From positions 1,488,001 through 1,552,000 of the forward strand of contig NZ_CP137734.1 in NCBI RefSeq assembly GCF_033406955.1: 64,000 nucleotides of DNA, given 5' to 3'. The notes under the pieces were generated by a model. It was given only the letters and a program-made list of their open reading frames with translations, made no database searches and was not told the origin of the DNA. The position numbers and the translations under genes are program-made. This stretch comes from Streptomyces violaceoruber. GTDB lineage: Bacteria; Actinomycetota; Actinomycetes; Streptomycetales; Streptomycetaceae. This document shows, in pieces, positions 28,309-42,680 of this stretch; position 1 is the first letter of the stretch; each line of letters starts with the position of its first letter.

Positions 28309-29652
28309 TCACCTCGTGAGCCAGTTGAGGAACTGGCTCCAACGGCCGGTGCCCGCGGCCTTGCGCGCGGTACCGGACTGTTCGGCACGCTCGCCCGCGG
28401 GTGCCTGAGCCGGGGCAGGCGTCCGGTCGGGGGCCGGGAGCGGGGTGAAGCGGGCCGGGAGCGCGGTGAGGCCGCGGGTGAAGGGCCCGGGGCGCCACGT
28501 CAGGCTGTCCTCGGGCACGGCGGCCGCGATGTCGGGGATCCGGTTGAGGAGGTTCTCGACGGCGGCCATGGTGATCTGGCGGGCGGGGTCCTTCGAGGGG
28601 CAGGCGTGCGGGCCCGCGCTCCAGGCCAGGTGGGAACGGTTGCTGCCGGACTGCCGGGCGGCGGCCAGGCTCGGGCTGTTGTTCGCGGCGGCGAAACTCA
28701 CCATGATCAGCTCGCCCGCCTCGAACTTCTGCCCGGCGAACTCCACGTCAGCGGCGGGATAGTGGGGCGCGAGATTGGGCACCGGAGGGTTCTCCCACAG
28801 GGTGTCCTCCATCGCCTCGTCGATCAGTCCGCCCTGGCGGGCGTACTCGTCGTGGATGAGGATGCGGTGCAGGGTGTTGCCGATCAGGTTGCGCAGCGGA
28901 TCGGCACCCGCGCCCAGGATCAGTGAGAGCTGATAGACCATCTCCTCGTCGGTCATCCTGGTCTCGTGCTGCATCAGCCACGAGGTCACGTCCTCGCCGG
29001 GGCGGCTGCGCTTGAGAGCCACCAGCTCACCGACCGCACCGAAGAGGACCTCGGCGGCCCGTTCCGCGTTGACGCCGTCGAACATGCCGGAAATGCCGAA
29101 CAGGATGCGGTCGCCGATGTCGGCGGGGCAGCCGAAGAGTTCGTTGAAGACGAACAGCGGGAGCTGCTTGGCGTAGTCGGCCATCAGGTCGGCGGAGCCG
29201 CGGGAACCGAACTGGGAGATCAGGTAGTCCGAGATCTGTTCGGTGCTGCGAGCCAGCCGGGCGGTGTCGATGCGGGCCATGGCGTCGGTGATCGCCTGGC
29301 GCAGCCGCAGGTGTTCGGCGCCGTCGCTGAACATGGCGTTGGGGCGGTAGGCGAGCAGCGGGACGACGGGGCTGTCCGCCGGGATCAGGCCCTCGTTGAA
29401 GGCCTTCCAGCGGCGCGCGTCCTTTCGGAAGGTGCCGTTGTCCTGGAGCAGGCGCAGTGCTGTCGCGTAGTCGGTGACGAGGGAGGCGTCGACACCCGGG
29501 GCGAGTTCGACGGGTGCGGAGGGGCCGTATGACCGTGCGTAGTCGTAGTAGGCGTGCGGGTCGGCCGCGAAGTCCGGCCCGTACAGCGGTATCCGCGCGT
29601 CGGCGTGGGCGGGGCATCCGGGCGGGGGCACCGCGGGGGTGGTGGCGTCCAT
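28309..29652 (-). CDS. CYP157-type cytochrome P450 without ExxR
   Basis: 447 residues from MDATTPAVPPPGCPAHADAR. P450 landmarks: YGPDFAADPHAYYDYARSYG, I-helix LSLILGAGADPLRNL (about residue 245), and heme loop LAWSAGPHACPSKDPARQI with the Cys ligand (about residue 370). The K-helix, normally ExxR, reads EDTLW. That replacement is known for the CYP157 family of Streptomyces conservons, which I recall carrying E-Q-x-x-W. Also the F of the usual FxxGxHxC is W. Conservon partners (sensor kinase-like CvnA, roadblock CvnB, CvnC, GTPase CvnD) are absent here. The reaction and electron donor are unknown; it may be catalytically unusual or non-catalytic. Confidence 0.78.
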   Translation of the reverse strand: MDATTPAVPPPGCPAHADARIPLYGPDFAADPHAYYDYARSYGPSAPVELAPGVDASLVTDYATALRLLQDNGTFRKDARRWKAFNEGLIPADSPVVPLLAYRPNAMFSDGAEHLRLRQAITDAMARIDTARLARSTEQISDYLISQFGSRGSADLMADYAKQLPLFVFNELFGCPADIGDRILFGISGMFDGVNAERAAEVLFGAVGELVALKRSRPGEDVTSWLMQHETRMTDEEMVYQLSLILGAGADPLRNLIGNTLHRILIHDEYARQGGLIDEAMEDTLWENPPVPNLAPHYPAADVEFAGQKFEAGELIMVSFAAANNSPSLAAARQSGSNRSHLAWSAGPHACPSKDPARQITMAAVENLLNRIPDIAAAVPEDSLTWRPGPFTRGLTALPARFTPLPAPDRTPAPAQAPAGERAEQSGTARKAAGTGRWSQFLNWLTR

Positions 29653-29776: not shown

Positions 29777-30025
29777 TCACTTCCTCAGCCGGGCCGGGAA
29801 CTGGTACCACTTCCCTGATACCCGTCGCCGGCCGCTGCGACCGGCAGGCGTGCGGGCCGGCGTTCCAGGCGAGCGAGGCCCGGTTGCCCGTGTAGTGGCC
29901 CTCCGTCCGGTGGTCGTAGTACGCCTGCGGATCGGCCGCGAAGTCCGGGCCGTACAGCGGCACCTGGCACCGGAGTCGTGAGCAGGGCGCCCCGGAGGTG
30001 GCACGGGCGCGGAATGGACATCCAT
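29777..30025 (-). pseudogene. Collapsed second P450 (CYP157-like) relic
   Basis: Begins MDVHSAPVPPPGRPAH, like the neighbouring P450's MDATTPAVPPPGCPAH. After a frame change it gives VPLYGPDFAADPQAYYDHR, then jumps directly to a heme loop (ASLAWNAGPHACRSQRPA) and ends with a tail GKWYQFPARLRK that parallels the intact gene's GRWSQFLNWLTR. About 340 residues between N-terminus and heme loop are deleted. A tandem-duplicate P450 reduced to three landmarks. Confidence 0.65.
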
Positions 30026-30113: not shown

Positions 30114-31085
30114 TCAACTCTCAGGGGTCTCATGGCTGTTGGGGCCAGCAGCGGGAGGACGGCGGTGGTGGCGGGGGCGCTCCTCGGTCATCCGCCTGCC
30201 GACCCGGGCGGCGGTCTCGCGCAGCCAGATGTGGGCCGCGTCGTGGGTGTGGACCGGGTGCCACCACAACGCCTCGCTCAGCGGCACCGCCTCGTAGGGC
30301 GGCTCCACCGCGCGTACGGCGGCGAGCGGGGCGAGGAGCCGGGCGAGGCGGGCCTGGATCAGGGCGATGCGCCGGGTGCCGTCGACCAGCAGCGGCATGA
30401 TCTGGAAGCTGTCGACGGAGACCTCGACGCGGGGCTCGATGCCCAGCATGCCGAGCTGGCGGACGGCCGGGGCGTCGTAGGTGCGCTGGTAGGTGACCCA
30501 GGGCAGCCGGGCCAGGTCTTCCCGGGTCAGCCGGTCGCCGACACTCGGGTGGTCGTCGGCGACGAGGAAGACCCAACGGTCCTGGTAGAGGTCGGTGGCG
30601 GGGAAACCGCTGATGACGCCGTGCGGCATGAACAGGCCGTCGGTGGTGCTCAGCAGGGCGTCCGTGGCGTCCACCACGCTGGTCGGCGTCTGGGCGAAGC
30701 GCAGCCGGATGCCCGGAGCCTCCTGGTGCACGACCCGGGCGAGTTCGGCGCCGAAGACGGCGACCGCGTAGTCGGACGCCACGAGTTTGAACTCACGGCT
30801 CTCCCTGGCCGGGTCGAAGTCCGCCTGGCTGGCGAACAGCCGTTCCAGCAGGTCGTAGGCGGTGGACGCGCGGTCGAGGAGGACCTGTCCGAGGGCGGTG
30901 AGTTCGTAGTGGCCGCCCACCCGGGCCAGGAGGTCGTCGTCGAAGTGCCGGCGCAGGCGGGCGAGCGCCGCGCTCATCGCCGGCTGGCTGAGGCCGACGC
31001 GCTGCCCGGCACGGGTCACGTTGCGCTCCTCCAGCAGGGCGCGCAGGGGGACGACGAGGTTGAGGTCCAGGCGACCGAGATTCAC
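30114..31085 (-). CDS. LysR-family transcriptional regulator of the aromatic cluster
   Basis: 323 residues: an N-terminal winged HTH (LDLNLVVPLRALLEERNVTR, VGLSQPAMSAALARLRRHF) and a periplasmic-binding-like effector domain (FKLVASDYAVAVFGAELA ... GISGF ... RWVFLVADDHPSVGDRL), the NodD/PcpR-like branch. Divergent from the six catabolic genes, with a 21-base palindrome between. It should activate them on binding a pathway intermediate (standard LysR logic, inferred). The start is GTG or its neighbour (NLGRLDLNL). Confidence 0.87.
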   Translation of the reverse strand: MNLGRLDLNLVVPLRALLEERNVTRAGQRVGLSQPAMSAALARLRRHFDDDLLARVGGHYELTALGQVLLDRASTAYDLLERLFASQADFDPARESREFKLVASDYAVAVFGAELARVVHQEAPGIRLRFAQTPTSVVDATDALLSTTDGLFMPHGVISGFPATDLYQDRWVFLVADDHPSVGDRLTREDLARLPWVTYQRTYDAPAVRQLGMLGIEPRVEVSVDSFQIMPLLVDGTRRIALIQARLARLLAPLAAVRAVEPPYEAVPLSEALWWHPVHTHDAAHIWLRETAARVGRRMTEERPRHHRRPPAAGPNSHETPES

Positions 31086-31130
31086 GGCGATCTTCCTTGC
31101 TGTCCGGCGACGACCTGCGAGAATTCGTCG

Positions 31131-31151
31131 TATGGATGGCTGCCATCCATA
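31131..31151. promoter_or_regulatory. Perfect palindromic LysR operator
   Basis: TATGGATGG (31131-31139), CTG, CCATCCATA (31143-31151): perfect 9-base arms. It lies 46 bases upstream of the lysR start and 62 upstream of the first catabolic gene, in an AT-rich patch. Best candidate for the regulator's binding site. Confidence 0.68.
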
Positions 31152-31212
31152 GAATCGATTTCCCTGATCGCGAGTGGCGGGTCCAGATTAGTGCCACCGC
31201 AATCAGGAGGAC

Positions 31213-32214
31213 ATGTCCGTGAAACCTGAAGCCGCGTCCGCCCTCTTCGCCGGACCCTTCGCCCTGGCCACCCTTTCCGCTCCCGAGGGTGCTGCCTTCC
31301 CCGCTCTCGTCACTCCCGACGCCCGGGTGACCGACCTGCGGTCCGCCTTCGAGGACACCGGCCTCAGCATGCGCGGGCTCCTCGACGACTGGGACGCGGT
31401 GGCGCCGCGGCTGGCCGCACTGGCCGTCGACGACGCCGCCGCGCGCAGGCCACTGGCGGAGTTCCGCGTGCACGCGCCGGTGGAGCCGCGCCAGGTGTTC
31501 CAGTCGGGAGCCAACTACCGGCAGCACGTCATCGACCTGCACGTCGCGCACCGGGCCCCGGACGACGACCGGCCGGAGGAGGAGCGGCGCGCGGAGGCCG
31601 CCGAGATCATGGACCGGCGGGCCGCCGAGGACCTGCCGTACGTGTTCATCGGCCTGCCGAGCGCGGTGACCGGCCCCTACGACGACGTCGTACTCCCGGC
31701 CTGGGCCGAGAAGCCCGACTGGGAGCTGGAGCTGGCGGCGGTGATCGGCCGCCCGACCCACCGGGTGTCCGTCGAGGAAGCCCTGGACCACGTCGCGGGC
31801 TACACGATCGCCAACGACCTGACCGACCGTGCCACGGTCTTCCGCCGGGACATGCCGCAGATCGGCACCGACTGGCTGCGCAGCAAGAACGCCCCCGGAT
31901 TCACGCCGCTCGGCCCCTGGATCGTGCCCACCGCCTCGGTCGGGGACCCGGGCGACCTGCGTCTGACGCTGAAGCTCAACGGCGAGACCATGCAGGACGA
32001 GTCGACCAAGGACATGATCTTCAACGTGGCGCGGATGGTCTCCTACGCCTCGCAGACCGCCCGGCTGCTCCCCGGCGACCTGGTGCTCACCGGCAGCCCG
32101 GCCGGCAACGGCATGCACTGGGGCCGGCTGCTGCGCGACGGCGACGTCATGGACGCCTCGATCACCGGGCTCGGTGCCCAGCGCACCCGCTGTGTGGCGG
32201 AGGCGGCCCGATGA
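31213..32214 (+). CDS. Fumarylacetoacetate hydrolase (FAH) family protein, first
   Basis: 333 residues. The C-terminal FAH fold shows VFQSGANYRQHVIDL, metal-binding ELELAAVIGRPT (about residues 176-187), GYTIANDLTDRA and the substrate-lid region GTDWLRSKNAPGFTPLGPW, ending in GDLVLTGSPAGNG. Members hydrolyse or isomerise acylpyruvates and dienoates in ring-cleavage pathways. AGGAGG at 31204-31209 supports the ATG. First gene of the operon; its stop overlaps the next ATG by 4 bases. Confidence 0.85.
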   Translation: MSVKPEAASALFAGPFALATLSAPEGAAFPALVTPDARVTDLRSAFEDTGLSMRGLLDDWDAVAPRLAALAVDDAAARRPLAEFRVHAPVEPRQVFQSGANYRQHVIDLHVAHRAPDDDRPEEERRAEAAEIMDRRAAEDLPYVFIGLPSAVTGPYDDVVLPAWAEKPDWELELAAVIGRPTHRVSVEEALDHVAGYTIANDLTDRATVFRRDMPQIGTDWLRSKNAPGFTPLGPWIVPTASVGDPGDLRLTLKLNGETMQDESTKDMIFNVARMVSYASQTARLLPGDLVLTGSPAGNGMHWGRLLRDGDVMDASITGLGAQRTRCVAEAAR

Positions 32215-33173
32215 CACTGGACCGCACCGACCCCGAGGGGGCCATAGCGCGCGCCGCGAAGGCGTACTCCAACTGGGGCCGCTGGGGCGAGGACGACGTG
32301 CTCGGCACGCTGAACTTCCTCGACGGGGCCAAACGCAGCGAGGGTGCCGCACTGGTCCGGCGGGGCGTCAGCTTCTCCCTCTCCCAGCGCTTCGACATGA
32401 ACGGCCCGCAGAAGGGCTGGCGCCGCCGCACCAACCCGGTGCACACCATGCTGGACACCGGCACCGACGCCGCCCTCGGAAACCAGGGCTTCCCGCACGG
32501 CATCGGCGGTGCCGACGACGTCATAGCGATGCCGTTGCAGTGCTCCACGCAGTGGGACGGGCTCGGCCACATCTTCGACCACGGCAAGGCGTGGAACGGC
32601 CGCCCCGCCGAGCAGGTCGTCACCTCCGACGGCGATCTGGTCACCGGCATCGAGCACATGGCCCCGCACGTGGCCGGACGGGGGGTGCTCCTGGACGTCG
32701 GCCGGGTCGTCGGCGAGGACGGTGAGCTGCCGGACGGGTTCGCGATCACCGAGGAGCACCTGGCCGCGACCGCCGGGGCGCACGGTGTCCGGGTGGGCCG
32801 CGGCGACATCGTCCTCGTCCGCACCGGCCGGCTCGCCCGGGCGCGCCGCGAGGGCTGGGGCGACTACGCGGGCGGGCCCGCCCCCGGCCTGTCGTTCACC
32901 ACGGCCGGCTGGCTGCACGGCACCGAGGTCGCCGCGATCGCCACCGACACCTGGGGCTTCGAGGTCCGCCCCAACGAGTTCGAGCACGCCTTCCAGCCGC
33001 TGCACCAGGTCGCCATCCCCCACATCGGCCTGCTGATCGGCGAGATGTGGGACCTGGACGCCCTCGCCGTGGACTGCGCGGAGGACGGCGAGTACGGCTT
33101 CTGGCTCACCGCCGCGCCCCTGCCCATCACCGGCGCGGTCGGCTCACCCGTCAACCCGATCGCGGTCAAGTAG
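32211..33173 (+). CDS. Cyclase-family (kynurenine formamidase-like) hydrolase
   Basis: 320 residues of the Cyclase superfamily. The metal/catalytic segment reads CSTQWDGLGHIFDHGKAWNG (about residues 110-129), the TQWDGLGH variant of the HxTxxDxxxH signature. GRGVLLDVGR and the C-terminal SFTTAGWLHGTEVAAIATDT, LHQVAIPHIGLLIGEMWDLD also fit. Relatives hydrolyse cyclic amides, lactones or formamides (isatin hydrolase, KynB). It overlaps the FAH gene by 4 bases. Confidence 0.82.
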   Translation: MTLDRTDPEGAIARAAKAYSNWGRWGEDDVLGTLNFLDGAKRSEGAALVRRGVSFSLSQRFDMNGPQKGWRRRTNPVHTMLDTGTDAALGNQGFPHGIGGADDVIAMPLQCSTQWDGLGHIFDHGKAWNGRPAEQVVTSDGDLVTGIEHMAPHVAGRGVLLDVGRVVGEDGELPDGFAITEEHLAATAGAHGVRVGRGDIVLVRTGRLARARREGWGDYAGGPAPGLSFTTAGWLHGTEVAAIATDTWGFEVRPNEFEHAFQPLHQVAIPHIGLLIGEMWDLDALAVDCAEDGEYGFWLTAAPLPITGAVGSPVNPIAVK

Positions 33174-33196
33174 ACCGAGGAACAAGGGAGTTCTTC

Positions 33197-34327
33197 ATGA
33201 TCCAGCCCCGCACGGTCCTCGTCGTCGGTGGCGGCGCGGCCGGCAACGCCGTGACGATCCTGCTGCGCCGCGCCGGTCTCACCGTGGACCTGGTCGAGGC
33301 CAAGGACGACTGGAACGCCACCGCCGGCTCCGGCATCACCCTCCAGGGCAACGCCCTGCGCGTGCTGCGCGAACTCGGCGTCTGGGAGCAGGTGGAGGCG
33401 TCCGGATTCGGTTTCGGCTCGGTCGGCATCACCACCCCCGACGGCACCGTCCTGCACGTCCAGGACGACCTGCGCACCGGCGGCGACGACCTGCCCGCCA
33501 CCGTCGGCATGCAGCGGCCGCGGCTCCAGCAGATCCTCATCGAGGCGGTGCGGGCGAGCGGGGCGTCGGTCCGGCTGGGCACCACGGCCGAGATCCTGGA
33601 CCAGGACTCCGACGGTGTGCACGTCCGGCTCTCCGACGGCTCCGAGCACCGTTACGACCTGGTGGTCGCCGCCGACGGCCTCGGTTCCGCCACCCGGGCC
33701 GCGATCGGCATCACCGACAAGCCCGAACCGACCGGCATGGCCATCTGGCGCATCGCCGCACCGCGTCCCGCCGGCCTGACCCGCACCGACCTCGCCTACG
33801 GCGGCCCGGCCCACATCGCCGGCTACTGCCCGACCGGCGAGACCACCCTGTACGCGTACGTCGTCGAGGCCAACCGGGACCGCGCCGGGATACCGCCCGC
33901 GTCGTACGCGGACGAGATGCGCGGCCTGACCCGGCACTACGGCGGCTTCTGGCCGGACATCACCGAGCACATCACCGACCCGGCGAAGGTCAACTACACC
34001 TGGTTCGACCGGCTGCTGGTCGAGGGCTCCTGGCACCGCGGCCGAGTGGTGCTCGTCGGTGACGCCGCCCACTGCTGCCCGCCCACCCTCGCCCAGGGCG
34101 CCGCGCTGTCCCTGGAGGACGCCTGGGTTCTCGTCCAGATGCTGACCGGGTCCGACGTGTGGGACGACGCCCTGTTCCAGGCGTACTACGAGCGGCGGAT
34201 CGCCCGGGTCCGGCCGGTCGTGGCGGCGTCGGTGCAGATCGGGCAGTGGCAGCTCGACGGCGTCCGCGACGCCGACCTGCCCGGCCTGATGGGCCGCACC
34301 ATGACCATGCTCCGGGAGCTGCCGTGA
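33197..34327 (+). CDS. FAD-dependent aromatic monooxygenase (PHBH-like)
   Basis: 376 residues. VLVVGGGAAGNAVTILLRR (residues 7-25) is the FAD dinucleotide fold. DLVVAADGLGSATRAAIG is the DG motif and RGRVVLVGDAAHCCPPTLAQ (about residue 285) the GD motif of group A flavoprotein hydroxylases, which use NAD(P)H and O2 to hydroxylate aromatic rings. GGGAG at 33186-33190 precedes the ATG. Overlap GTGA with the next gene. It likely prepares the ring for extradiol cleavage. Confidence 0.87.
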   Translation: MIQPRTVLVVGGGAAGNAVTILLRRAGLTVDLVEAKDDWNATAGSGITLQGNALRVLRELGVWEQVEASGFGFGSVGITTPDGTVLHVQDDLRTGGDDLPATVGMQRPRLQQILIEAVRASGASVRLGTTAEILDQDSDGVHVRLSDGSEHRYDLVVAADGLGSATRAAIGITDKPEPTGMAIWRIAAPRPAGLTRTDLAYGGPAHIAGYCPTGETTLYAYVVEANRDRAGIPPASYADEMRGLTRHYGGFWPDITEHITDPAKVNYTWFDRLLVEGSWHRGRVVLVGDAAHCCPPTLAQGAALSLEDAWVLVQMLTGSDVWDDALFQAYYERRIARVRPVVAASVQIGQWQLDGVRDADLPGLMGRTMTMLRELP

Positions 34328-35376
34328 CCGCCGTGCCCACTCCAGCCGTGCCCACTCCAGCCGCAAACGCTCCAGCCGTGCACACGCCCACCGTGGACGT
34401 GCACGCCCACGTCCTGCTGCCCGAGGTCGAAGCGCTCGTGGCCGGTCTGCCCGGCCACGCCGGGGCCCGGGAGCTGGACGCCCGGCGCAACGGTCCCGCC
34501 GCACTCGCGGTCAACGGACCCATGGTGCGCGACCGCGTCCCCCGGATGACCGATGTCGCCCTGCGCCTGGCCTCGATGGACGCCCAGGGCGTGGACGTGC
34601 AGCTGGTCAGCCCCTCCCCCTCGCACTACCACTACTGGACCGACGAGGACACCGCCGAGAAGCTGTACCGGCTCGCCAACGAGGCCGTGGCCGCGCACTG
34701 TTCGGCCGCCCCCGAGCGGCTGCGCGGTCTCGGCCTGGTCCCCCTCCAGCACCCCGAGCAGGCGGTCCGGGCCCTGGACCACGCCCTGGAGCAGGGCCTG
34801 GCCGGGGTGGAGATCTCCAGCCACGCCCCCGACCGGGAGCTGTCCGACCCCGCCTACGCGTCCTTCTGGACCCGGGCCGGGGAAACCGGCGCGATCATCT
34901 TCCTGCACCCCTTCGGATGCACCCTCGACGAGCGGCTGGACCAGTGGTACCTGTCCAACACCGTCGGCCAGCCCACCGAGAACGCCGTCGCCCTCTCCCA
35001 CCTGATCTTCTCCGGTGTCCTCGACCGCCACCCGCGCCTGCGGCTGATCGCGGCGCACGGCGGCGGCTACCTGCCCACCCACATCGGCCGCTCCGACCAC
35101 GCATGGTCGGCCCGCTCCGACGCGGGCGCCGGCTGCGCGCACCCGCCCAGCAGCTACCTGAAGCGCCTGTACTTCGACTCCCTGGTCCACGACCGGCACG
35201 TGCTGCGGGAGCTGATCCGGGCGGCCGGTGCGGACCGGGTGCTCCTCGGCTCCGACTTCCCCTTCGACATGGGCACCGAGGACCCGGTCGGCGCCCTGCG
35301 CGCAGCCCGCCTCACCGACTCCGACTTCCACGCCGTACGAGGCGGAAACGCCGCCGCCCTCCTCCGGAAGGACTGA
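34324..35376 (+). CDS. ACMSD-like amidohydrolase / decarboxylase
   Basis: 350 residues of amidohydrolase_2. VDVHAHVLLPE holds the metal-binding HxH; HPFG, LIAAHGGGYLPTHIGRSDHA and LLGSDFPFDMG supply further His and the conserved Asp. The best-known relatives decarboxylate 2-amino-3-carboxymuconate semialdehyde or hydroxybenzoates with a Zn2+ or Mn2+ ion. The N-terminus is a Pro/Ala-rich repeat (three to four PTPA units) before the barrel. GTG start overlapping the monooxygenase stop. Confidence 0.83.
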   Translation: MTAVPTPAVPTPAANAPAVHTPTVDVHAHVLLPEVEALVAGLPGHAGARELDARRNGPAALAVNGPMVRDRVPRMTDVALRLASMDAQGVDVQLVSPSPSHYHYWTDEDTAEKLYRLANEAVAAHCSAAPERLRGLGLVPLQHPEQAVRALDHALEQGLAGVEISSHAPDRELSDPAYASFWTRAGETGAIIFLHPFGCTLDERLDQWYLSNTVGQPTENAVALSHLIFSGVLDRHPRLRLIAAHGGGYLPTHIGRSDHAWSARSDAGAGCAHPPSSYLKRLYFDSLVHDRHVLRELIRAAGADRVLLGSDFPFDMGTEDPVGALRAARLTDSDFHAVRGGNAAALLRKD

Positions 35377-35381
35377 CCGCC

Positions 35382-36314
35382 ATGCGCCTGCTCACCCACC
35401 TGCGGCACGTCGACCTCGCCGTGCCGGACTACGACAAGCAGCTCGACTTCTACTCCGGCGTCTGGGGCCTGACCAAGGTCGCCGAGGACTCCGGCATCTC
35501 CTTCCTGGCCGCCGAGGGCTCCCCCGAGCAGTACGTCGTACGGCTGCGCAAGGCCGAGGAGAAGCGCCTCGACCTCGTCTCCTACGGCGCCGCGAGCGCG
35601 GCGGACGTCGACACCCTCGCCGAGCGGCTGCTCGCGGGCGGCGTCCAGTTGATCTCCCGGCCGGGCACGGTGGACACGCCCGGCGGCGGCTACGGCTTCC
35701 GCTTCTTCGACGTCGACGGCCGCACCATCGAGGTCTCCGCCGACGTCGAGGTGCGGCAGCACCGCAGGATCGAGGAGAAGGAGTCCATCCCGGTCAAGCT
35801 CTCCCACGTCGTCCTCAACTCCCCCGACCTCAACCGCACCCGCGAGTGGTACGAGCGCCACCTCGGCTTCGCCCTGTCCGACACGCTCAGCTCGCCGCAC
35901 ATGGGCGAGGTCATGCACTTCATGCGGATCAGCAACCAGCACCACTCGATGGCCCTCGCGAAGGGCCCGCACACCGCCCTGCACCACATCTCCTTCGAGA
36001 TGCGCGGCCTCGACGAGTACATGCGCGGCTCGGGCCGGGTCATGCGGGCGGGCTTCAGGAAGATCTGGGGTCCTGGCCGGCACCTGGCCGGGGACAACAC
36101 GTTCACGTACTTCCTCGACCCGCACGGCAACACCGTCGAGTACACCACCGAGCTGGAGAACCTGGACGAGGACACCTGGCACCCGCACGTCTACGACTTC
36201 TCCCGGCCCGAGGTCACCGACCAGTGGGGCACCGCCAACCCCATGAACGAACTGGTCGCCAAGGAGTCGTTCAACGACCCCGACCGCGGTGTGTTCGTCG
36301 CCCCGCCGGTCTGA
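35382..36314 (+). CDS. VOC-family extradiol ring-cleavage dioxygenase
   Basis: 310 residues with two vicinal-oxygen-chelate modules. The N-terminal one (LRHVDLAVPDYDKQLDFYSG) is structural. The C-terminal one supplies a complete Fe(II) triad: His in KLSHVVLNSPD, His in ALHHISFEM, Glu in TVEYTTELE. This is the type I extradiol dioxygenase layout (catechol 2,3-dioxygenase / DHBD). It starts 5 bases after the amidohydrolase stop, within the operon. Confidence 0.86.
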   Translation: MRLLTHLRHVDLAVPDYDKQLDFYSGVWGLTKVAEDSGISFLAAEGSPEQYVVRLRKAEEKRLDLVSYGAASAADVDTLAERLLAGGVQLISRPGTVDTPGGGYGFRFFDVDGRTIEVSADVEVRQHRRIEEKESIPVKLSHVVLNSPDLNRTREWYERHLGFALSDTLSSPHMGEVMHFMRISNQHHSMALAKGPHTALHHISFEMRGLDEYMRGSGRVMRAGFRKIWGPGRHLAGDNTFTYFLDPHGNTVEYTTELENLDEDTWHPHVYDFSRPEVTDQWGTANPMNELVAKESFNDPDRGVFVAPPV

Positions 36315-36361
36315 TCCGCGTCCACCTCGACCGACCACCCCCGCACAACAGGAGCCGGACC

Positions 36362-37333
36362 ATGCGTTTCGCCGCCTACGAACACCGCCACCGTCACCGC
36401 GTGGCCGTCGTGGAGGAGGACGGCTCCCTCCGCCCGCTGCCCGGCGTCACCTCACTCACCGACCTGCTCGCGCGGGCCGACGGACTGCCCGGCCTGCTCG
36501 CCGCCGGCCGGGCCGCCCTCGGCGTCCCGCGCGGCCCCCACGTGTCCCAGGTGCGGCTGCTGGCCCCGCTGCGGCCCGCGTCGGTACGGGACTTCGTCAC
36601 GTTCGAGGAGCACGTCGAGGGCGTACGCCGCTCGGTCGACGGCGTCGCCGGGGTCCCCGAGCAGTGGTACGCGGCGCCGACCTTCTACTTCACCAACCCG
36701 CACGCGATCCACGGCCACCGGGACGACATCCCGGTACCGCCCGGTTCGGCCGTGCTGGACTTCGAGTTGGAGGTCGGCGCGGTGATCGGGCGGGAGGGCC
36801 GCGACCTCACCCCCGAGCAGGCCCGCGACCACATCGTCGGCTACACCGTGTTCAACGACTGGTCCGCACGCGACCTCCAGGGCGCGGAGATGACGGTGGG
36901 CCTCGGTCCCTGCAAGGGCAAGGACGGCGCCACCACCCTCGGCCCGTACCTCGTCACCGCCGACGAGCTGGAGCCGTACCGGGACGCCGACGGGTTCCTG
37001 CGCCTGGCCCTGACCGCCGAGGTCAACGGTGAGAGGGTCGGCGAGGACCTGCTGTCCAACATGAGCTGGACCTTCGAGGAGATGACCGCCTACGCCTCCC
37101 GCGGCACCCGCGTCGTCCCCGGCGACGTCCTCGGCTCGGGCACCTGCGGCAACGGCGGCTGTCTGGCCGAACTGTGGGGCCGGCGCGGAAAGCAGGACCC
37201 GCCGCCGCTGCGGGCGGGCGACACCGTCGCCCTGACCGTGCAGGGCATCGGCACCCTGACGAACACCGTCGTTCCCGGCCCGGACCCCGTACCGCTGCCG
37301 GCCGGCCGACGGCGCAGCCGGGAGCGGCCGTGA
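36362..37333 (+). CDS. Fumarylacetoacetate hydrolase (FAH) family protein, second
   Basis: 323 residues. DFVTFEEHVEGVRRSVDG, the metal site LDFELEVGAVIGREG, GYTVFNDWSARDLQ and LGPCKGKDGATTLGPYLVT are typical of the FAH branch nearest true fumarylacetoacetases and acylpyruvases; the end GDVLGSGTCGNGGCLAEL is also conserved. AGGAG lies 12 bases before the ATG. Two distinct FAH proteins in one operon suggest successive isomerase/hydratase and hydrolase steps after ring cleavage (inference). Confidence 0.85.
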   Translation: MRFAAYEHRHRHRVAVVEEDGSLRPLPGVTSLTDLLARADGLPGLLAAGRAALGVPRGPHVSQVRLLAPLRPASVRDFVTFEEHVEGVRRSVDGVAGVPEQWYAAPTFYFTNPHAIHGHRDDIPVPPGSAVLDFELEVGAVIGREGRDLTPEQARDHIVGYTVFNDWSARDLQGAEMTVGLGPCKGKDGATTLGPYLVTADELEPYRDADGFLRLALTAEVNGERVGEDLLSNMSWTFEEMTAYASRGTRVVPGDVLGSGTCGNGGCLAELWGRRGKQDPPPLRAGDTVALTVQGIGTLTNTVVPGPDPVPLPAGRRRSRERP

Positions 37334-40800: not shown

Positions 40801-41727
40801 ATGCCCATGACCGAGAACGTCATCATCACCTGCGCGCTCACGGGCGCCGGCGACACCGTCCGCAAGAGCCCCCACGTCCCCGTCACCCCGGAACAGATAG
40901 CCAGGAACGCCGTCGAGGCGGCCGCCGCCGGAGCGGCCGTCGTCCACATCCATGTACGCGACCCGGAGACCGGCGACCCCTCCCGCGACCCGAAGCTGTA
41001 CCGGGAGGTCGTCGAGCGCGTCAAGGAGACGGGCACCGACGTCGTCATCAACCTCACCGCCGGCATGGGCGGCGATCTGGTCATCGACCCGGACGATCCA
41101 CTCACCCACCTGCCCGGCACCGACCTCGTCGGCGGCCTGGAGCGCCTTCCGCACGTCGAGGACCTGCTTCCCGACATCTGTACGCTGGACTGCGGCTCGC
41201 TCAACTTCGGCGACGGCTCGAACCTCTACGTCTCCACTCCCGACATGCTGCGCGCGGGCGCACGGCGCATCCAGGAGCTGGGTGTGCGGCCCGAGTTGGA
41301 GATATTCGACACCGGTCAGCTCTGGTTCGCCAAGCAGTTGCTCGCCGAGGGCCTGCTCGACGACCCGACCGTCTTCCAGCTGTGCATGGGCATCCCGTGG
41401 GGCGCGCCCGCGGACCCCGGGGTCCTCCAGTCGATGGTCGGCATGCTGCCGGACGGCGCGCGTTGGGCGAGCTTCGCGCTCGGCCGGATGCAGATGCCGT
41501 GGGTCGCGCAGTCCATCCTGCTCGGCGGCCACGTCCGCGTGGGCCTGGAGGACAACCTGTACCTCGGCCGGGGCAACAAGGCGACCAACGCCCAGCTCGT
41601 GGAACGGGCCGTGACCCTCACCGAGTCGATGGGCGCCCGCGTCGCGACGCCGGACGAGGCCCGCGCCACCCTCGGTCTCCGGCCCCGCGACCGGTCCGCC
41701 GCGCCGACGAAGGAGCGCATCCGATGA
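40801..41727 (+). CDS. BKACE (DUF849) beta-keto acid cleavage enzyme, 3-dehydrocarnitine type
   Basis: 308 residues. [15 protein letters not shown] carries the Zn2+-binding HIH and Asp/Arg signature of BKACE, with [13 protein letters not shown] and DCGSLNFGD further on. These enzymes transfer the acyl part of a beta-keto acid to CoA from acetyl-CoA, releasing acetoacetate. Next to a carnitine dehydrogenase and a thioesterase, the likely substrate is 3-dehydrocarnitine, giving glycine-betainyl-CoA. It overlaps the next gene (ATGA). Confidence 0.82.
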
Positions 41728-42680
41728 CCTCGCCCGAGAACGTCCGCCGCGTCGCCTGTGTCGGCGCCGGAGTCATCGGCGGCGGCTGGGTGGCCCACTT
41801 CCTGGCGCGCGGCTACGAAGTGACCGCCTGGGACCCGGCGCCCGACGCCGAACCGAGGCTGCGCCGCCTGGTCGAGGCGGCGTGGCCGACGCTCACCCGG
41901 CTCGGCCTCGCCGAGGGCACGTCGACGGACCGGCTCACCGTCACCGGCACCCTGGAACAAGCCGTCGCGGACGCCGAGTTCGTCCAGGAGAGCGCGCCCG
42001 AGAAGCTCGCCCTCAAGCGCGATCTGCTGGCCCGCCTGGACGCGGCGACACCACCCGGCGTGGTCATCGCCTCGTCCACCTCCGGCTATCCGATGACCGA
42101 CATGCAGACGACGGCCGCGGACCCCTCGCGCCTGGTCGTCGGTCACCCGTTCAACCCGCCCTACCTCATCCCGCTCGTCGAGGTCGTCGGCGGCGAGCGC
42201 ACCGACGCGGCGGCGGTGGCCTGGGCCTCCCGCTTCTACGAGGTCGCGGGCAAGTCCGTCATCACGATGGACAACGAGGTGCCGGGCTTCATCGCGAACC
42301 GCCTCCAGGAGGCGCTGTGGCGGGAGGCGCTGCACATGGTCGCGAGCGGCGAGGCGACGGTCCGGGACATCGACCTGTCGATCACCGAGGGACCCGGGCT
42401 GCGCTGGGCGGTGATGGGGCCGATGCTGACGTTCGCGCTCGCGGGCGGCGAGGGCGGCATGGCGCACATGCTGGACCACTTCGGCCCGTCCCTGAAGTCG
42501 CCGTGGACGCGCCTGGCGGCGCCGGAACTGGACAAGGAGTTGTACGACGCGGTGGTGGCCGGCTGCGACGAGGCGGCGGACGGCCGCTCCATCGCCGACC
42601 TGGTGGCCGAACGCGACCGGGGCGTCGTCGAGGTACTGCGCGCCACCGGCCGCCTGGGCCCCGAGGAGGACTCCCGATGA
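41724..42680 (+). CDS. L-carnitine dehydrogenase / 3-hydroxyacyl-CoA dehydrogenase family
   Basis: 318 residues. The NAD+ Rossmann motif [20 protein letters not shown] opens the protein. [29 protein letters not shown] (catalytic His) and [20 protein letters not shown] follow the 3-hydroxyacyl-CoA dehydrogenase fold in its short carnitine-dehydrogenase form. It would oxidise L-carnitine to 3-dehydrocarnitine for the upstream BKACE. It overlaps both neighbours by 4 bases. Confidence 0.83.

Follow-up and report, generated by a model that had tools for sequence, protein, structure and literature searches.

A conserved six-gene operon of Streptomyces violaceoruber that looks like a meta-cleavage route for a phenolic acid

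What compound is handled by six tightly packed genes at positions 31213-37333 of a stretch of Streptomyces violaceoruber DNA, and by which chemistry? The stretch, here called the window, spans 64,000 nucleotides (positions 1,488,001-1,552,000 of an 8.63 Mb single-contig genome). The genes are co-directional on the forward strand in the order FAH1-CYC-FMO-AHY-EDO-FAH2, with Pfam matches, in the same order, to FAA_hydrolase, Cyclase, FAD_binding_3, Amidohydro_2, Glyoxalase/dioxygenase and FAA_hydrolase. The spacers are -4, 23, -4, 5 and 47 bases, and since the genes overlap by 4 bases or are separated by gaps of 5-47 bases, the arrangement is like that of a single transcription unit. An earlier note had described tightly packed aromatic-catabolism genes here under a LysR gene. 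Coordinates, spacings and Pfam families bear this out for the six genes, while the LysR-type regulator (30114-31085, reverse strand; HTH_1 and LysR_substrate domains) is present but lies upstream and is transcribed divergently. The region between the LysR and FAH1 start codons (31086-31212) is, from its position, the presumed promoter/operator, and a consensus scan of it found no sigma-70-like site. By its sequence the operon looks like a route that would oxygenate an aromatic acid, open the ring and hydrolyse the pieces into food molecules. A reasonably probable reading, in our view, is an aerobic route by which a phenolic acid is meta-cleaved, ending in a beta-keto acid, probably acetoacetate.

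The unit was examined in the best 80 of 569 AHY matches, from Streptomyces and Kitasatospora aureofaciens, referred to below as the named loci. By tblastn, all six genes are present in 73 of the 80; gene by gene, EDO and AHY are each found in 80, CYC, FAH1 and FAH2 in 78, FMO in 76 and LysR in 72. Of the seven exceptions, four (L060, L073, L088 and L115) run off a contig end and were scored as misses, and the other three (L067, L068 and L079) are without FMO; remnants of its start are visible in L067 and L079. A survey independent of the choice of AHY, with EDO, AHY and CYC searched separately in 199 Streptomyces genomes including this one, gave 63 loci with a close EDO (at least 85% identity) in 54 genomes, with AHY adjacent in 61, CYC in 58 and both in 57. 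That tally excludes as distant types 20 EDO rows (60-72%), 10 AHY rows (51-58%) and 12 CYC rows (51-80%), and scores one genome (G526) as without CYC, its CYC being on another contig. Ten of the twenty 60-72% EDO loci were inspected; their surroundings are other clusters of various kinds, and in one of these (L135) all six genes have relatives. Among 396 genomes of a phylum survey, AHY occurs at E <= 1e-70 in 12, this genome included. The conserved co-occurrence that the earlier note had proposed to look for is therefore found, both for the six genes in the named loci and for AHY beside close EDO, and at the level of sequence it confirms the six genes as one real, conserved operon.

EDO (35382-36314, forward) is a predicted two-domain vicinal oxygen chelate (VOC; class I) extradiol dioxygenase, matched by PF00903 in two stretches and by 3b59 at 241 bits. 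H142, H202, E253 and Y243 are unchanged in 8 of 8 relatives; we take the first three to be the iron ligands and Y243 to be the active-site tyrosine of class I extradiol enzymes. The 2-His-1-carboxylate iron site and the tyrosine by which this class is recognised are thus retained. FMO (33197-34327, forward) falls in the PRK06847 subfamily (NF005313, 451.7 bits, cut-off 372). Group A flavin monooxygenases carry three FAD motifs, GxGxxG, DG and GD, and in FMO the corresponding G11/G13, D160-G161 and G288-D289 are kept in 13 of 13 relatives, with G16 nearly so. Its predicted model (pLDDT 88.8) matches HpxO, 4-hydroxybenzoate 1-hydroxylase, MHPCO, TrlE and 3-hydroxybenzoate 6-hydroxylase, and also KMO, NicC and tetracycline destructases. 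The HpxO match has a Z score of 39.4 and an rmsd of 2.5 over 361 residues, with other families close behind (38.3 and 37.8). Motifs and modelled fold together identify FMO as a predicted group A hydroxylase, and because enzymes with different substrates match at similar scores, the fold is uninformative about its substrate.

AHY (34324-35376, forward; PF04909, HxH type) is nearest 2-amino-3-carboxymuconate-6-semialdehyde decarboxylase (ACMSD) in a profile search, at 245 bits versus 120 for the next family, 5-carboxyvanillate decarboxylase. With residue numbers counted on the alignment, AHY H27, H29, H195, H245, D311, R69 and R256 align with human ACMSD H6, H8, H174, H224, D291, R47 and R235, presumably metal ligands and the catalytic histidine together with the substrate-binding arginines R47 and R235. 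All are kept in 8 of 8 relatives except R69, which occurs in 5 of them, one being the window copy. At the positions of the human active-site residues W191 and M178, AHY and all 8 relatives have N212 and C199. CYC (32211-33173, forward) belongs to a long subfamily of the PF04199 'cyclase' family. We take the canonical metal motif of PF04199 hydrolases to be HxxxHxDxxxH; CYC lacks it and reads QxxxQxDxxxH (Q110, Q114, D116 and H120), unchanged in 10 of 10 relatives, while a relative on an S. chartreusis plasmid (49% identical) has histidine at the second place (114). Its sole solved relative, the uncharacterised protein 5ibz (218 bits with the profile), has both glutamines too. CYC matched no NCBIfam model at E <= 0.001, and its predicted model is poor (pLDDT 56). 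The two remaining proteins are of the fumarylacetoacetate-hydrolase family. FAH1 (31213-32214, forward; PF01557, 234.7 bits) is nearest 2,4-diketo-acid hydrolases, its best solved relative being the L-2,4-diketo-3-deoxyrhamnonate hydrolase 8gsr (151 bits). FAH2 (36362-37333, forward; PF01557, 186 bits) is more divergent, and with a partial match of 73 bits to TIGR01266 against a cut-off of 375.3, it is not a fumarylacetoacetase of that model.

The single operon described in the earlier note has a companion that was overlooked there, as LysR and the six genes recur in the same genome at about 2,088.8-2,096.2 kb (locus L009). DNA identity between the copies is 91% from LysR through EDO and 87% across FAH2. 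The spacer between EDO and FAH2 is 47 bases in the window (36315-36361) and 264 in the second copy (L009 14915-15178). Downstream of the second copy are two short-chain dehydrogenase/reductase genes (SDR1 and SDR2), a 3-oxoacid CoA-transferase pair whose subunits match pcaI_scoA and pcaJ_scoB above cut-off, and a monooxygenase gene, incomplete at the end of the stretch, that is nearest 3-hydroxybenzoate 6-monooxygenase but below cut-off. Close relatives of SDR1, SDR2 and the CoA-transferase are absent from the window. By tblastn, SDR1 occurs in 62 named loci, SDR2 in 19 and each of the two CoA-transferase subunits (A and B) in 32. A major facilitator superfamily (MFS) gene, weakly like drug exporters, is found in 32 of the 80 by a home-made gene caller in Python, which missed or fused some genes (such as FAH1 of L028) and whose counts can fall below those of tblastn. 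The usual unit is therefore longer than six genes: an SDR is present in most relatives and a CoA-transferase in many. Of 75 named loci whose sequence extends at least 3 kb past FAH2, 14 are without SDR1, SDR2 and the transferase; two of these (L046 and L065) keep a short SDR1-like piece.

Since dN/dS between the two copies is 0.12-0.27 in every gene (FAH1 0.24, CYC 0.17, FMO 0.18, AHY 0.27, EDO 0.12, FAH2 0.20), both look to be under purifying selection and appear maintained. In a tree of 77 of 89 loci, only those with all six genes called, the distance of the second copy is 0.001 to Streptomyces pilosus JCM 4403 (L045), 0.052-0.083 to L040, L039, L042 and L038, and 0.130 to the window copy, whose closest relative is L038 (0.113). 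A recent duplication was rejected on these distances, which mark the window copy either as an ancient paralogue or as one that arrived horizontally. The neighbourhood of L038 is similar to that of the window copy, but SDR1 and the CoA-transferase are present there, which suggests that these genes were lost from the window copy or were never part of it. At about 712.7 kb of the genome (L011 6679-6919), two pieces of an FAH2-like gene are a decayed third FAH2 copy without the rest of the operon.

From the gene content, the catalytic positions kept in EDO, FMO and AHY, the conservation of the unit and the signs of purifying selection, we infer a type of substrate, an order of steps, products and a reaction for CYC. 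LysR would sense the substrate or an intermediate. FMO would hydroxylate beside a phenolic hydroxyl to give a catechol-type ring, which EDO would open by extradiol (meta) cleavage. AHY would act as a decarboxylase and release CO2, most likely with the ring-opened acid as its substrate, as in ACMSD and the phthalate-pathway enzyme OpaD, or possibly before hydroxylation. FAH1, CYC and FAH2 would then hydrolyse a di- or tri-oxo acid to pyruvate- or fumarate-type acids and a beta-keto acid, probably acetoacetate. The accessory SDRs and the 3-oxoacid CoA-transferase, which stand beside the second copy and not in the window, would feed the beta-keto acid to central metabolism.

Several observations are consistent with such an ending. 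The six genes include no CoA chemistry, and a beta-diketone product would suit an operon that has two FAH proteins and neither an aldolase nor a dehydrogenase. Acetoacetyl-CoA ligase and thiolase genes adjoin EDO relatives in Corynebacterium occultum and L134, and an acetoacetate-decarboxylase-family gene lies between the CYC and FMO relatives of L095. Novosphingobium and Polymorphobacter each have, next to relatives of EDO and FMO, a full-length relative of fumarylacetoacetase (343.6 and 325.9 bits, cut-off 375.3), and the Novosphingobium locus also holds relatives of AHY and FAH1. At 2993-4827 of L149, a gene of the beta-keto acid cleavage enzyme family (276.7 bits, cut-off 382) directly adjoins an AHY relative, and genes like aldehyde dehydrogenases (ALDH) and metallo-beta-lactamase (MBL)-fold proteins are near. 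Taken together, the CoA-transferase, the ligase and thiolase, the decarboxylase, the fumarylacetoacetase relatives and the L149 gene are signs of a beta-keto acid, probably acetoacetate.

Other observations weigh against this reading. The acetoacetate-linked genes other than the CoA-transferase stand in variant loci, and the acetoacetate-decarboxylase-family gene was seen in L095 only, among the loci examined. In L107 a catechol 1,2-dioxygenase cluster includes a pair to which the CoA-transferase is 77% identical, and in L029 a pair beside an acetyl-CoA acetyltransferase is 69-74% identical to it; because it is close to both, the CoA-transferase cannot tell acetoacetate from 3-oxoadipate. It is missing from 48 of the 80 named loci, some of them cut by contig ends. 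FAH1 and FAH2 both score below every NCBIfam equivalog cut-off. Some loci dispense with steps of the route: FMO is absent in L067, L068 and L079, EDO in L147, and AHY together with FAH1 in L146, which has an alpha/beta hydrolase, and in L148, which instead has ornithine-cyclodeaminase (OCD), ALDH and dihydrodipicolinate synthase (DHDPS)-family genes. Because of these absences, the six steps may not form one obligatory line.

Parts are also exchanged between loci in other ways. L067, L068 and L148 all carry ALDH and DHDPS-family genes together with an OCD-family gene, which does not belong to the usual unit and whose product could act on an amine or imine. EDO is replaced in three other actinobacterial loci (L029, L031 and L032) by a different VOC protein, 21-23% identical, which in L029 scores 247.8 bits against catechol 2,3-dioxygenase (cut-off 320.2). 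AHY-relative loci of Novosphingobium EMRT-2 and Rhodococcus opacus have an MBL-fold gene and no cyclase annotated or called, and L039 and L084 of Streptomyces have both CYC and an MBL-fold gene. With such exchange (two types of EDO, AHY and FAH1 kept or replaced, either CYC or an MBL-fold gene), the contribution of the individual steps can be put to the test. Plasmids of Rhizobium and Agrobacterium carry a short five-gene relative, AHY-EDO-FMO-MFS-FAH, and in the Rhizobium plasmid relatives AHY is 32% and EDO 35% identical. Gentisate- or catechol-type genes are found near the operon in L009, L027 and L107.

Which phenolic acid would enter such a route? In the orcinol pathway of Pseudomonas putida ORC, a flavin hydroxylase forms 2,3,5-trihydroxytoluene, and extradiol cleavage and hydrolysis of a 2,4,6-trioxo acid follow. 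By analogy, the substrate could be a polyketide-type methyl-resorcinol acid such as orsellinate, which AHY, FMO and EDO would convert to a 2,4,6-trioxo acid and the FAH proteins to pyruvate and acetoacetate. We put this forward tentatively, as a doubtful proposal that draws on the carbon count (orcinol C7 = C3 + C4), the signs of a beta-keto acid and the known pathway. The analogy is drawn between reactions, and we know of no counterpart of AHY or CYC in the P. putida ORC pathway; searches of the openly licensed literature for orcinol gave nothing of use. If true, the proposal would explain the CoA-transferase and the other acetoacetate-linked genes, the rhizobial five-gene operon would hold just the enzymes needed, and the route would be an undescribed, widespread actinobacterial pathway.

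No six-gene pathway of such composition was found in the openly licensed literature, a scope outside which most subscription-journal papers fall, and in this respect the view of the earlier note that no canonical pathway fits all six genes stands. The operon appears to be new as a gene set, and its kind, meta-cleavage catabolism, is already known. The comparisons with published systems made here refer to the available portions of the cited papers. In these, the opa pathway of Pseudomonas sp. PTH10 for o-phthalate/2,3-dihydroxybenzoate resembles the operon in its extradiol cleavage of a carboxylated catechol (OpaC) followed by an ACMSD-homologous decarboxylase (OpaD). OpaD is 30% identical to an ACMSD and decarboxylates 3-carboxy-2-hydroxymuconate-6-semialdehyde; both it and PraH are ACMSD-like decarboxylases of nitrogen-free ring-cleavage products (PMC6362003). 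The opa set differs in having a Rieske dioxygenase, 2-hydroxymuconate semialdehyde (HMS) dehydrogenase/hydrolase, tautomerase, decarboxylase, hydratase and aldolase, where the operon has a flavin monooxygenase and three hydrolase-family proteins; no opa-type HMS dehydrogenase, tautomerase, hydratase or aldolase is among the six genes or was recognised in 12 recurrent neighbour clusters. The hcdABC genes for 7-hydroxycoumarin in Pseudomonas mandelii 7HK4 are a precedent for a flavin hydroxylase, a type I extradiol dioxygenase and a hydrolase acting on a trihydroxy ring, which is converted to a dioxo dienedioate and, as proposed, to succinate and an acylpyruvate (PMC6222606); that system has three genes, and the available description includes no AHY, CYC or FAH gene. 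The lum pathway for lumichrome in Nocardioides simplex contains an extradiol step and a hydrolysis to pyruvate and acetoacetate, and shares with the operon an unassigned FAH-family gene (lumV) and a metallohydrolase (lumF), but as far as described it uses P450, xanthine-oxidase-like, Rieske, pyrone hydrolase, cupin hydratase and aldolase steps, and identity with it was rejected on these enzymes (PMC12746152). The kpi cluster for 4-hydroxypyridine was rejected as well, its enzymes as described being of other families and its amidohydrolase belonging to Pfam01979 (PMC7356986). A gentisate or homogentisate pathway was also rejected, as the ring-cleaving enzyme is a VOC extradiol protein and the gentisate-type genes beside some relatives form a separate set.

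Against the favoured meta-cleavage route for a phenolic acid, a flavonoid A-ring pathway would have FMO hydroxylate at C8, EDO cleave the ring and the hydrolases finish the degradation. The fde genes of Herbaspirillum (naringenin) and the ifc genes of Variovorax (daidzein) open in this manner, with a group A flavin monooxygenase and a glyoxalase-family dioxygenase (PMC11069340; see also PMC11303751 for fdeE and PMC4440368 for the Herbaspirillum transcriptome), a likeness of gene types as published. Relatives of EDO (42-46% identical) and FMO (36-38%) also occur in clusters of sphingomonads, accompanied by alpha/beta hydrolase, cupin or FAH genes. The fde/ifc systems continue with cupins and an alpha/beta hydrolase, however, and neither type is among the six genes or was recognised in the 12 recurrent neighbour clusters, while AHY, CYC and FAH2 go unmentioned in the available fde/ifc accounts; we regard this explanation as unlikely. 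A more improbable explanation takes up the hint of the earlier note at a compound of the kynurenine, isatin or anthranilate type; such a compound, or another N-aromatic one, would be degraded with CYC as formamidase and AHY as ACMSD. AHY is indeed nearest ACMSD among solved structures, an ACMSD-family decarboxylase also serves the kynurenine branch through 2-amino-3-carboxymuconate-6-semialdehyde, and CYC is in PF04199, which we take to be the family of kynurenine formamidase and isatin hydrolase. KMO, NicC and MHPCO are among the matches of the FMO model, and OCD-family genes occur in some variant loci. Set against this, the glutamines of CYC stand in place of two canonical histidines, the one histidine of the S. 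chartreusis relative notwithstanding, and N212 and C199 of AHY are unlike the corresponding ACMSD residues. Ring cleavage in the kynurenine branch is by a cupin-type 3-hydroxyanthranilate 3,4-dioxygenase; a search for it gave no match in this genome, and control genomes gave none either. One site at 4.52 Mb holds both kynureninase (above cut-off) and tryptophan 2,3-dioxygenase (389.4 bits, cut-off 390.7), at distances of 2.4 and 3.0 Mb from the operon copies. Among the 45 commonest of 727 neighbour clusters, no amine-handling gene was recognised in the usual unit, whose travelling companions are SDRs and the 3-oxoacid CoA-transferase, and the precedents OpaD and PraH act, as reported in the available part of that source, on nitrogen-free products (PMC6362003). 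The general proposal of the earlier note, that the genes hydroxylate, decarboxylate, cleave and hydrolyse an aromatic acid, thus fits a conserved operon of aromatic-catabolic type, and its nitrogen-compound hint is not supported.

Two further explanations concern what the operon is for. It might tailor or detoxify a self-made secondary metabolite rather than feed growth, as the drug-exporter-like MFS gene and the presence of TrlE and tetracycline destructases among the structural matches of the FMO model could suggest. No biosynthetic gene family was recognised in the 45 commonest neighbour clusters, the accessory SDR and CoA-transferase genes are catabolic and gentisate- or catechol-type genes are nearby in three loci, which makes this very improbable in our view. 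Alternatively, the window copy might be reduced and redundant, with a working pathway only from the copy at 2.09 Mb, since the second copy and L038, the nearest relative in a similar neighbourhood, have accessory genes that the window copy does not. The six open frames, the low dN/dS in every gene and the recurrence of the reduced form in 14 of 75 loci speak for a functional window copy, and we hold its redundancy to be rather improbable.

Of the sampled Streptomyces genomes, about one in four has a close EDO, and AHY and CYC nearly always adjoin it. An abundant soil genus thus has an aromatic-catabolic route for which no assigned substrate was found in the literature searched. A substrate assignment would close a gap in the picture of soil carbon turnover, set right the misleading labels formamidase-like and ACMSD-like and give a PF04199 subfamily a function.

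One Streptomyces genome (G513) has four close EDO loci, and in another (G420:C21) a second EDO copy contains an in-frame TAG stop. L135 and L151 represent a divergent second operon subtype in Streptomyces with an extra FAD-linked oxidase, which in L135 is weakly like BagG/FevA2; a small ABM monooxygenase is also present there. Elsewhere in the window, a gene resembling beta-keto acid cleavage enzymes and, after it, one resembling L-carnitine dehydrogenase occupy positions 40801-42680; neither reaches an equivalog cut-off, and the same pair is near the operon in L038. A P450 gene whose family matches are all below cut-off lies at 28309-29652 (reverse strand), and just upstream of it, at 29817-30025 (reverse strand), is the remnant of a similar P450, of which only the start and the heme-binding end are left, the middle being gone.

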